Positions 32,668 through 63,318 of a stretch of DNA of 64,000 nucleotides are shown here, in pieces. Each line of letters begins with the position of its first letter. The stretch's first letter is position 1. The position numbers were made by a program, and so were the translations under genes. The DNA comes from Comamonadaceae bacterium. GTDB taxonomy: Bacteria; Pseudomonadota; Gammaproteobacteria; Burkholderiales; Burkholderiaceae_C. The DNA lies in NCBI GenBank assembly GCA_009996515.1, contig JAACZV010000024.1, positions 1 through 64,000 on the forward strand. The letters run 5' to 3'. The notes under the pieces were generated by a model. The model saw only the letters and a program-made list of their open reading frames with translations. It was not told the DNA's origin and ran no database searches.

Positions 32668-32705
32668 TAAAGTCCGCGCACCCCAACCCTCCAGGGATCG
32701 TGCCC

Positions 32706-34736
32706 ATGAAGTTGCTGCCCCCGCTGATCGCGCTGCTGCTGGCCGCCGCTGGCCAAGCCCAGGCCCAGGCCCAGACCTACACCGTGCTGTGCGCCAAGGT
32801 GGCCTGCGGGCGGCTGCTGGTCACCGAGACGGCCGGCCGGCTGGACGTGGACTACAGCTACCGCAACAACGGCCGCGGCCCCGACCAGAAGGAGGTGCTG
32901 GAGTTCGCGCCGGACGGCGCCTGGACGGGCTACCGCACCGAGGGCGTGTCCACCTATGGCGCGCGCATTGACGAGAGCTTCGAGCTGAAGGACGGCCGCG
33001 CCAGCTGGCGCTCGCCGGTGGATGGCGGCGCGCGCGCGGACGCGGGGCGGGAGCGGGTCTACCTGCCGGTGCAGGCCAGCCCGGCCTGGGCCGCGCGCGT
33101 CGCGCGCACGCTGCTGCAGCGCCCCGGCCAGCGCGCCGCCGCGCTGCCGGTGGGCCAACTCGCCCTGGAGCGGGTGCAGACGCTCAGGCCCGCCGGTGCC
33201 GCTTTCGACGTGGGCCTGTACGCCATCGAGGGCCTGGACCTGGAGCCCGGCTATCTGTGGCTGCGCGAGGACAACCAGGCGCTGTTCGCCAAGATCGACC
33301 CCGGTTGGGGCGGCACGCTGCTGCAGGGCTTCGAGGCCGAGATGGACCGCCTGTCCGACGTGCAGAAGGCCGCGCAGCTGGCGCGGCTGCAGCGCCTGGC
33401 CAAGACCCTGCCCCAGGCCTTGCCGGGCCTGACCGTCATCGAGGGCGTGCGCTGGTTCGATGCGCAGGCGGCCGTGCTGCGCGGGCCGTCGGACGTCTAC
33501 CTCTACGAAGGCCGCATCGCGGCCATCGCCAAGCCCGGCAGCCTGGGGCCCGTCGGGCCGGCCCAGCGCATCAGCGGCCAGGGCCGCACGCTGCTGCCCG
33601 GCTTCGTCGACATGCACGCCCACCTGGACGCCAGCGCGCTGCTGCTGAATCTGGCCTCGGGCGTGACGGCGGTGCGCGACGTGGGCAACAGCAATGCCGA
33701 CCTGGCCGAGCTGCGCGGCCGCATCGAGCGCGGCGAGCTGCTGGGCCCGCGCATCGCGGCCAACGGCTTCATCGAGGGCAAGAGCCCGTTCTCGTCGCAG
33801 GCCGACTTCGTGCCCGACAACCTGCCCGACGCGCTGGCCGCCATCGACTGGTATGCCGCCCATGGCTATCGCCAGCTCAAGCTCTACAACTCCATCCGGC
33901 CCGAGTGGGTGAAGCCCATGGTGGCGCATGCGCGCGCCCTGGGCCTGCGCACCGGCGGCCATGTGCCGGCCTTCATGACGGCGCGCCAGGCCGTCGAGGC
34001 CGGCTACGACGAGCTGCACCACATCAACCAGGTCACGCTGAACTTCCTGGTCGGCAAGGACGACGACACGCGCACGCTGCTGCGCTTCAATCTGGTGGGC
34101 GACAAGGCCGCGGACCTGAAGCTCAACGACCGCCGCACGCAGGACTTCCTCGCGCTGCTCAAGACCAAGGGCACGGTCGTCGACGCGACCATGACCGCCT
34201 TCGAGGCCCAGTACACGCAGCGCCAGGGCCAGCCCAACCCCAGCTATGCGATGGTGGCGGCCCATCTGCCGGCCGTCGTGCAGCGCAGCTACCTGTCCGC
34301 CGAGGTGGACATGGACGACGCCAAGGCCAGGCGCTGGAGCGCGAGCTGGCGGGTCATGATGGACTTGCTGCGCCGCATGCACGCGGCCGGCATCCCGTTG
34401 GTGGCCGGCACCGACGCGACGCCGGGCCTGGCGCTGCAGCGCGAGCTGGAGCTCTATGTGCAGGCCGGCATCCCGGCCGCGCAGGCGCTGAAGATAGCCA
34501 CCTGGAACGGCGCCAAGTACAGCGACCGGCTGCACGAGATCGGCAGCATCGAGCGCGGCAAACGCGCCGACCTGGTGCTGGTGGACGGCGACCCGGTGGC
34601 CGACATCCGAGCCATCCGCCGCATCGCGCTGGTCATCCAGGGCCACAACAACGAAACCCGGGCGCTGTCGCCGTCGGCGCTCTATCAGGCCATGGGCATC
34701 CAGCCCTTCGTGGCTGCGGCGGAGATCACGAAATGA
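32706..34736 (+). CDS. Exported amidohydrolase-family metal-dependent hydrolase
   Basis: 676 residues with a signal peptide (LIALLLAAAGQAQAQA). After an unassigned N-terminal domain (about 25-250), the amidohydrolase barrel has the metal ligands HxH in FVDMHAHLD, a candidate carboxylated Lys in QLKLY, His in GGHVPAF and in ELHHIN, and Asp in VAGTDATPG. The end ERGKRADLVLVDGDPVADI is typical of imidazolonepropionase/prolidase-like members. It probably acts in the periplasm on a cyclic amide or dipeptide. An upstream GTG (32700) is possible. It overlaps the next gene by ATGA, a solute-binding protein, suggesting a shared substrate (inference). Confidence 0.88.
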   Translation: MKLLPPLIALLLAAAGQAQAQAQTYTVLCAKVACGRLLVTETAGRLDVDYSYRNNGRGPDQKEVLEFAPDGAWTGYRTEGVSTYGARIDESFELKDGRASWRSPVDGGARADAGRERVYLPVQASPAWAARVARTLLQRPGQRAAALPVGQLALERVQTLRPAGAAFDVGLYAIEGLDLEPGYLWLREDNQALFAKIDPGWGGTLLQGFEAEMDRLSDVQKAAQLARLQRLAKTLPQALPGLTVIEGVRWFDAQAAVLRGPSDVYLYEGRIAAIAKPGSLGPVGPAQRISGQGRTLLPGFVDMHAHLDASALLLNLASGVTAVRDVGNSNADLAELRGRIERGELLGPRIAANGFIEGKSPFSSQADFVPDNLPDALAAIDWYAAHGYRQLKLYNSIRPEWVKPMVAHARALGLRTGGHVPAFMTARQAVEAGYDELHHINQVTLNFLVGKDDDTRTLLRFNLVGDKAADLKLNDRRTQDFLALLKTKGTVVDATMTAFEAQYTQRQGQPNPSYAMVAAHLPAVVQRSYLSAEVDMDDAKARRWSASWRVMMDLLRRMHAAGIPLVAGTDATPGLALQRELELYVQAGIPAAQALKIATWNGAKYSDRLHEIGSIERGKRADLVLVDGDPVADIRAIRRIALVIQGHNNETRALSPSALYQAMGIQPFVAAAEITK

Positions 34737-60976: not shown

Positions 60977-60980
<4 letters not shown>
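60144..60980 (+). CDS. Purine-nucleoside phosphorylase (trimeric type)
   Basis: 278 residues. VVLGSGWAGAVSHV, GRAHTYETGDCTGMAGALRTL, QTNASGSLRSHMPPGSLMLI and the final region with GMSTVPETILARHAGLKVMGLALMTNMAAG fit low-molecular-mass PNPs. It splits purine nucleosides with phosphate. It overlaps deoC (GTG within the PNP end). Confidence 0.92.
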
Positions 60981-61741
<761 letters not shown>

Positions 61742-62007
61742 GGGGCTTGGTAACGCTACGGGAATCGGATGCGTTGCCACTCAAAAGCCCGCGAGCAAGG
61801 CGCGAAGTCGAAGCTGGGGTCATTCCCAGCGAGGCTTCGCAACGCCGCGCGCGGGCTTTTGAGTGACAACCCTTCGGGAGAGGGTCAGCGCGGGCGCAGG
61901 GCGTTGTTGCGCGCCTTGCCTGGGCATGAGCCCAGGCGGCGTCGCACGCCTAACCCTGCGCCCGCGCAGACCCTCTCGCATCGATTCCCGTAGCATTACC
62001 AAGCCCC
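61742..62007. repeat. Structured inverted-repeat element filling the deoC-deoA gap
   Basis: A nested, cloverleaf-like palindrome 266 nt long. The ends are complementary: 61742-61773 (starting GGGGCTTGGTAA) with 61977-62007 (ending TTACCAAGCCCC), 26 of them with one mismatch plus five more across a 1-nt bulge. Arm 1 pairs 61773-61793 with 61850-61870 (21 nt, one mismatch; CACTCAAAAGCCCGCG core) and encloses GCTGGG/CCCAGC. Arm 2 pairs 61878-61901 with 61954-61977 (24 nt, one A-A mismatch) and encloses GCCTGGGC/GCCCAGGC around ATGA. It starts directly after the deoC stop and ends directly before the deoA ATG. No protein is encoded. No target-site duplication is visible. Confidence 0.85.
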
Positions 62008-63318
62008 ATGCTTGCTCAAGAAATCATCCGCGCCAAGCGCGACGGCCAGGCGCTCAACGAAGCGCAGATCAACCACTTCGTCCGCGGCCTGGTCGACAAC
62101 TCCTGGAGCGAAGGCCAGGTGGCGGCGCTGGGCATGGCCGTGTTCCTGAAGGGCATGGGCCGCGACGAGGCCGTGCTGCTGACCCGCGCGATGATGAACT
62201 CCGGCCGCGTCATGCGTTGGCCCGACATGCCCGGCCCGGTGCTGGACAAGCACAGCAGCGGCGGCGTCGGTGACAAGGTCAGCCTGATGCTGGCGCCCAT
62301 GGTGGCGGCCTGCGGCGGCTATGTGCCCATGATTGCCGGCCGCGGCCTGGGCCACACGGGCGGCACGGTGGACAAGCTGGAAGCCATTCCCGGCTACACG
62401 ACGACGCCCGACCCGGCGCGCTTCGACCAGATCGTGCGCACGCTGGGCTGCGCCATCATCGGCCAGACCGCCGACCTGGCGCCCGCCGACAAGCGCTTCT
62501 ACGCGACGCGCGACGTGACGGCCACGGTGGAGAGCGTGCCGCTGATCACCGCCAGCATCCTGTCCAAGAAACTGGCCGCCGGCCTGGAAGGCCTGGCCAT
62601 GGACATCAAATGCGGCAACGGCGCGTTCGCGTCCACGCCCGAGTTCGCGAAGGAACTGGCCGAGAGCATCGTCGCGGTCGCCGGCGGCGCCGGCCTGAAG
62701 ACGCGGGCGCTGATCACCGACATGAACCAGGTGCTGGGCACCGATGTCGGCAACGCGCTGGAAGTCCTCGAGACCATCCGCTACCTGAAGGGCGAGCATC
62801 GCGAGCCGCGCCTGCACGAGGTCACGCTGGCGCTGTGCGCCGAGATGCTGGTGCTGGGCAATCTCGCCGCCGACACGGCGAGCGCGCGCGTGAAGCTGCA
62901 GGCCGCGCTGGACTCCGGCGCCGCCGCCGAGAAGTTCGCGCAGATGGTGGCCGCGCTGGGCGGCCCGGCCGACCTGATGGAGCGCCCCGCGGCCTATCTG
63001 ACGGCCGCGCCGGTCGTGAAGCCCGTCGCCGCGCCGCGCGCCGGCGTCCTCACGACCATGTCGACTCGCGACCTGGGCGTGGCCATCGTCGAGCTGGGCG
63101 GCGGCCGCCGCAAGGCCGGCGATGCCATCGACATGCGCGTGGGCTTCTCCGACGTGCGGCCTATCGGCACCCGCGTTGCCGCCGGCGAGCCGCTGGCGCT
63201 GATCCACGCGGCCGACGAGGCCGCCGCCGATCGCGCCATCGCGTCCTACCTGGCCGCCTGCACGCTGGGCGACGCCGACGTGGCCGCGACGCCCATGGTG
63301 ATGGCCGAGGTGGGCTGA
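62008..63318 (+). CDS. deoA: Thymidine phosphorylase DeoA
   Basis: 436 residues. It phosphorolyses thymidine and deoxyuridine. [64 protein letters not shown] and [17 protein letters not shown] are signature regions. The N-terminus ([13 protein letters not shown]) matches the family exactly, so the ATG at 62008 is right, but no Shine-Dalgarno sequence precedes it: the 20 nt upstream are the end of the inverted-repeat element. It overlaps trmB by TGATG. Confidence 0.95.

Follow-up and report, generated by a model that had tools for sequence, protein, structure and literature searches.

What fills the space between deoC and deoA in this bacterial DNA, and how does it bear on the start codon that it adjoins? 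The stretch analysed (the window, 64,000 nucleotides) carries between the two genes a nested three-armed palindrome of 266 nt at positions 61742-62007. As a preliminary description of this DNA had claimed, the palindrome fills the gap with no spare base: the TGA codon of deoC ends at 61741 and the ATG codon of deoA begins at 62008. The identities of both genes are backed by Pfam DeoC and pyrimidine-phosphorylase domains. The features of the region are as follows.

60977..61741, + strand: deoC; its TGA adjoins the element.
61742..62007, + strand: whole cloverleaf element of subfamily A, with high confidence a MITE, 266 nt; aligned with 22 other copies; junctions empty in relatives.
61742..61768, + strand: outer stem, left half (terminal inverted repeat); partner 61981-62007; letters differ among copies, with 97.6% of cells paired.
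61773..61870, + strand: arm 1, a long hairpin with an inner hairpin at 61813-61830; from repeat search and RNA fold.
61867..61878, + strand: junction CAACCCTTCGGG of arms 1 and 2, overlapping their ends; columns mostly invariant.
61878..61977, + strand: arm 2, a long hairpin with an inner 8-bp hairpin at 61918-61937; from repeat search and RNA fold.
61981..62007, + strand: outer stem, right half, adjoining the deoA ATG; genome G002 has an identical right end.
62008..63318, + strand: deoA; its ATG adjoins the element.

Both arms with inner hairpins, noted earlier, were recovered. The repeat search delimited outer arms of 26 nt (61742-61767/61982-62007, 96% complementary), to which the fold adds a few pairs, and gave 24 nt at 96% for the halves of the second arm (61878-61901/61954-61977). 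Non-Watson-Crick pairs of the outer stem in this copy are C/A at columns 13/258 and G/T at columns 27/244. The predicted RNA fold of the element is a closed three-way structure of -209 kcal/mol. Shuffled folds had a mean of -115.35 kcal/mol (sd 4.99); the z-score of the element is -18.77 and none of 200 shuffles equalled it. The absence of a Shine-Dalgarno (SD) site before deoA, also noted earlier, holds: no match is found in the 20 nt upstream of the ATG and the anti-SD duplex has an energy of +0.6 kcal/mol. A search of region 61500-62300 against Rfam 15 returned 16 matches up to E 10, none of them at its own gathering cut-off; a known RNA family was set aside on this ground. The list of open reading frames (a list, not a protein-family search) holds only short mechanical ones within the 266 nt, with no transposase among them.

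To place the element in a family, 40 genomes were compared, several of them drafts or MAGs. Matches with E<=1e-3 were found in 18: the element's own genome, 15 of the 19 others of its genus, one of the four others of the family (G022) and one of the 16 others of the order (G032, 27 nt only). At E<=1e-40, 11 of the 20 genus genomes, own included, gave a match. A core-pattern scan of named records yielded 47 stretches, titled Pelomonas, Roseateles or MAGs (Burkholderiales, Burkholderiaceae, Proteobacteria, uncultured Pelomonas). Where searched, the family is thus almost confined to Pelomonas/Roseateles and unnamed relatives. The 128 placements reduce to 64 without duplicates, 28 in subfamily A (nearest to the deoC-deoA copy) and 36 in subfamily B, with a common three-arm layout; the copies are short, numerous and alike, and the loci that carry them are unrelated. 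In the own genome (G000, 4.58 Mb, 48 contigs), the deoC-deoA copy is the single full A copy, and the other outside match belongs to a B copy (L103 1669-1933; G000 C22 about 32668-32932) with TA on both sides. A copies recur across species, before cnoX in three genomes and before metF and flgG in two each. The A core differs by 0.095 within genomes and 0.104 between genomes, so that concerted evolution within genomes is unsupported as the cause of its conservation.

Some copies depart from the common form. L019, L020 and L021 are diverged relatives with 67-68% identity, L020 (G019) lying 1 nt upstream of a carbonic anhydrase start. Since L021 comes from a different genus within the family (G022), the repeat family may be older and wider. 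L046 (the place of L163) and L049 have their second arm inverted with respect to the other A copies; it matches on the opposite strand, with identities of 95% (G006) and 91% (G013). Remnants of 29 nt like GGGCCTGTTAACACTACGGCAGCAGGCCC, with small variations, were seen at L100 about 1988-2016, L101 about 2011-2039 and L104 about 104-132, two in G000 and one in G004; they look as would be expected of B copies that had collapsed between CAGGCC repeats. Among the papers listed from the open-licence literature on bacterial MITEs and palindromic repeats, Pelomonas and Roseateles, none describes this family as judged by title or opening of the abstract, and those listed for cloverleaf MITEs concern, by title, giant viruses and yeast mitochondria. 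The Pelomonas/Roseateles cloverleaf family is apparently undescribed so far.

The ends of the element point to a mover. Searching for them led to two insertion sequence (IS) copies, the two on which this part rests: L095 (G002) and L096 (G004), 824 and 823 nt as cut and 87% alike. Both carry GGGCCTGTTAACACTA (16 bp) at both termini with TA outside. L095 encodes an IS5-type transposase over two overlapping frames (DUF4096; DDE_Tnp_1; NF033580), the second frame scoring above the cut-off of NF033580 transpos_IS5_3 and the first below it; L096 has a similar frame pair. This IS may fall in the IS427 group, with a YTAR target. Many of the B copies and some of the A copies retain the GGGCCTGTTAACACTA end; the deoC-deoA copy does not. 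An autonomous IS found in these hosts therefore has the terminal inverted repeats of the family, and judging from these ends an IS5-family element of ~820 bp in the same genus is likely to be the mover of the MITE. The cloverleaf element has the same ends and TA flanks as this IS, whereas it has no transposase, and in start-adjacent A copies the ends have diverged and the TA duplication is mostly missing.

Empty sites were found in relatives. At deoC-deoA, the junction is empty in all 16 other same-genus genomes read (G000 and G002 apart; not readable in G010 and G016), with gaps of 1-29 nt and the exact arrangement TGA-CC-ATG in five of the 16. G002 has an insertion at the identical place with the identical right end, about 110 nt shorter, as a deletion between GGGCTT repeats would leave it. 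Its DeoA is 93% identical to the own one; that of four other genomes is 96% identical, so that G002 is not the nearest. In 150-nt windows across the junction, no local rise in identity between G000 and G002 was found, and a recent exchange of the junction is unsupported. Ancestry with losses and an older transfer both remain compatible with these two observations. Empty sites were also found at at least 11 further A loci, with at least 40 fragments of relatives without the element; 12 of the 19 reconstructed junctions were searched, L039 being the one that contributed no empty site. G012 has the full element at the LD-carboxypeptidase junction; in G008 this place shows a 7-nt palindromic remnant, AGGCCCT (L203, C3:178599-178757).

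At most of the 11 A loci, as judged by eye, the insertion replaces or loses about 1-6 nt and no target is duplicated; at the GH43 locus it is more. The deoC-deoA copy has no target-site duplication at its flanks. In a tally covering 62 of the 64 placements (unreadable rows: L141, L168, L160), TA was present on both sides in 14/36 B rows, 2/5 other A rows and 1/21 start-adjacent A rows. Start-adjacent A copies are thus mostly without flanking TA; they would be older and trimmed, or would have been inserted differently. In B, a neighbour gene ends 1-2 nt inside the element on the left in 12/34 and on the right in 8/34; the B element often supplies the stop of its neighbour, which would follow if, in a GC-rich genome, TA targets frequently belonged to TAG stops. 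The preliminary description had proposed a mobile element as one reading, and had named a lack of copies anywhere else among the findings that would speak against it; such copies do exist. The other copies, the empty sites and the IS with the same ends lead us to hold, with high confidence, that the cloverleaf element is a non-autonomous MITE of Pelomonas/Roseateles-type bacteria.

The position of the A copies is biased. With loci merged by hand and a limit of 17 nt picked after seeing the data, 17 of 22 independent A loci have on their right, in the same strand, a start codon 0-17 nt away (14 have one within 6 nt), as do 4 of 31 B loci. The count uses 60 of the 64 placements (L147, L049, L122 and L117, with short flanks or a cut end, are left out). 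Neighbour genes were called by a codon model trained on the window, and starts are predicted except where the alignments of relatives agree. The expectation was derived from this one window, which has 81 non-coding TA dinucleotides; 7 of them fall within the limit on the + side, and 6 do so on the other. Tests on 21 A and 30 B loci (the full merge has 22, with L050 extra, and 31) gave p = 3.6e-15 for A against expectation, p = 1.6e-6 for A against B (Fisher) and p = 1.4e-4 for the 17:1 orientation. In L050 the predicted start falls inside the element, and the start of L166 (GTG, +3) was taken by eye and from empty-site alignments, against the gene model. The opposite-orientation case in A, L169, is at 20 nt, past the limit; those in B are L111 at 14 and L118 at 19 nt. 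By Pfam, the 17 downstream products are a thymidine-phosphorylase-type DeoA, DnaB, Mfd (TRCF), MTHFR (metF), FlgG, a thioredoxin-TPR protein (presumably CnoX), PanE, a pterin dehydratase (presumably the phhB product), an ABC ATPase, an LD-carboxypeptidase, an EF-Tu-type GTPase, an eCIS core protein, GH43, Usp-hemerythrin, HNH and DUF2946-like proteins (the last just below cut-off) and a carbonic anhydrase; no common function is evident among them.

On the left, ten start-adjacent A loci have a co-directional gene. In nine cases this gene ends close to the left boundary of the element, from 5 nt outside it to 12 nt within; at the dnaB locus, the remaining case, it is 151 nt away. At the seven other start-adjacent loci, the left neighbour is on the other strand. 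At L030, L114, L165 and L158, the upstream gene apparently stops at a TGA in the outer stem, element positions 10-12. At the dnaB locus (L035), TTATCCACA, which resembles a DnaA box, precedes dnaB just upstream of 2269, with the element between it and the ATG; the DnaB encoded there also has a LAGLIDADG (intein-type) domain.

Does the folded element bring an SD sequence close to the start codon? An SD directly to the left and a start directly to the right of the element were seen at flgG (AAGGA), the DUF2946-like gene (AGGA), the HNH gene (GGAGG) and the B locus L137/L138 (GGAGGA). At deoA, neither the looped-out nor the straight arrangement gives a good SD. Among 19 start-adjacent A rows, looping out improved the SD match in 5, worsened it in 12 and left it unchanged in 2; the mean anti-SD energy was -2.9 kcal/mol looped out and -3.6 kcal/mol straight, the latter equal to that of 52 window genes (-3.6 kcal/mol). 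Since most rows are worsened by looping out and the straight mean is that of ordinary window genes, SD bridging is unsupported as a general rule. L115, L165 and L158 have AGAGG about 7 nt upstream of the start, within the 3′ arm. In phage T4 genes 38 and 25, according to the part of the source available, RNA structure cuts the SD-AUG distance from 22 to 5 and from 27 to 11 nt (PMC3014915). The idea of a structure that brings SD and start closer is common to both cases; as far as that account goes, the T4 structures are small native stems, whereas here a 266-nt mobile element has a clear far-side SD at few loci.

The outer stem changes by pairs. Among 23 A copies, 24 of its 27 pairs changed on both sides with 97.6% of cells paired, and the covariation score was 0.568 as compared to 0.204 when shuffled (0/500) and 0.08-0.15 when slid; both-sided changes concern 11 of the 76 pairs of the inner arms. 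Per-cell counts, made without eight cut, shortened or strongly diverged placements (L049, L117, L160, L050, L020, L141, L122, L119), gave for start-adjacent A copies 95 both-sided and 30 one-sided changes in the outer stem, and 17 and 67 in the inner arms. Difference per site in these copies was 0.300 at outer and 0.065 at inner paired sites; at unpaired sites of all A copies it was 0.19, against 0.07 at inner paired ones. The B outer stem also covaries (88 both-sided against 34 one-sided cells), though B copies are mostly not before starts. At the same locus, cnoX stems differ by 7 both-sided and 0 one-sided changes (G006/G012), 6 and 2 (G008/G012) and 2 and 2 (G006/G008); metF orthologues differ by 1 and 2. 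The signal for an RNA strand from G-U and A-C counts is weak and mixed: by cells, which share ancestry, G-U exceeds A-C by 69 to 30 in A and 78 to 37 in B; by columns the A count is 31 to 26, and in the B outer stem the order reverses (A-C 17, G-U 13). Folding showed little strand preference, the mean MFE(+) minus MFE(-) being -0.3 kcal/mol in A (range -20.3 to 12.4) and +2.6 in B.

Our preferred explanation joins these observations. An IS5-family transposase acting in trans would take the outer stem as terminal inverted repeats, with a preference for TA. An element inserted between a stop codon (or an SD) and a start would fold in the mRNA to the closed three-way structure, whose stem would hold both sides of the junction near each other, and the downstream gene would still be translated. 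The outer stem would thereafter be kept for pairing, not for sequence, its ends drifting by compensated changes. At deoC-deoA, TGA and ATG would stay side by side across the base of the stem, and such stop-start proximity could be a general rule. Copies, empty sites, IS-shared ends, positional bias and covariation are observed, and we give the whole account a probability of about 0.55; its step of looped-out tolerance, taken separately, we put forward tentatively. As the stem is nearly symmetrical, tolerance by itself does not account for the 17:1 orientation, and the orientation bias speaks for the A core either having a function or being biased in how it inserts. The preliminary description had also offered a switch for deoA and an mRNA-processing site as possible roles; position and orientation at so many starts may point to an effect on translation or to tolerance by it.

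One alternative, which we consider unlikely, sees in subfamily A an element of translation control that was domesticated or spreads by itself. In sense orientation, its conserved core would attract ribosomes to the gene that follows or set their timing, and the outer stem would be the portion by the start that is free to change. The oriented adjacency at 17 of 22 loci fits it, as do a core alike across loci and species beside a drifting outer stem, and the AGAGG of three copies. An orientation-dependent effect on mRNA has also been reported for ERIC in the available part of the source (PMC2229807). The downstream genes, however, have no evident common function, unpaired sites vary more than inner paired ones, unlike in a typical ligand-binding RNA, and none of the Rfam matches attains the gathering score of its family. 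A riboswitch-like ligand RNA was set aside on the first two of these grounds.

Just as improbable in our estimate is a covariation without function, the arms being matched at the DNA level by template switching (quasi-palindrome correction), with start adjacency reflecting where insertions occur or are tolerated. Covariation of B mostly far from starts is in line with it, as are the similar G-U and A-C counts by columns and the proportion of non-Watson-Crick cells in A, about 5% in outer and inner arms alike. Correction would, however, need to act unevenly, since inner arms changed mainly on one side and the outer stem on both; moreover, an insertion before a start, expected to be poorly tolerated, is over-represented.

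The element might also be an intercistronic site of mRNA processing or stability (RNase III or RNase E) that parts the deoC and deoA messages, a possibility in line with the very long, near-perfect double strand of the predicted RNA. RNase III is able to bind and cleave Correia elements, according to the part of the source available (PMC2649163). At seven start-adjacent A loci, nevertheless, the gene to the left runs on the opposite strand, so that there is no upstream cistron to part, and we judge this reading quite improbable. A chance palindrome or an assembly artefact is refuted by the shuffled folds, by the same, partly deleted insertion in G002 and by the 64 distinct placements.

Compared with known small elements, the preferred MITE reading has precedents. 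RUP of Streptococcus pneumoniae is likewise a short element with a proposed IS mover in trans (IS630-Spn1) and TA-containing targets; it measures 107 bp as compared to 266 nt, its IS is of a different family, and the available part of the source mentions no start-codon bias (PMC2229807). ERIC and Correia/NEMIS are, in the parts of the sources available, transcribed small palindromic repeats able to affect mRNA (PMC2229807, PMC2649163). Their size and hosts differ, and they are likened here by description, not by sequence. To our knowledge, they have no branched three-arm layout. The comparison with Correia elements made in the preliminary description is apt in kind, both being small, non-autonomous and palindromic; the likely mover is here an IS5-family transposase.

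A bolder reading, which we regard as doubtful, would make subfamily A a mobile ready-made 5′ leader, sense-oriented before starts, compatible with translation through its self-closing cloverleaf and with stems drifting by paired changes. If true, it would be a natural, self-spreading and structure-selected module lying from the stop or ribosome-binding signal to the start, before genes like dnaB and mfd. An insertion before a start is expected to silence the gene, yet a 266-base element stands there at 17 of 22 A loci and persists across species. If the preferred account is true, the family would offer a natural test of the amount of structured RNA that bacterial ribosomes are able to step over, would bear on translational coupling in operons, and would show a transposon end losing its sequence yet keeping its shape. 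Filled and empty versions of the loci in related strains make the question of tolerance directly testable.
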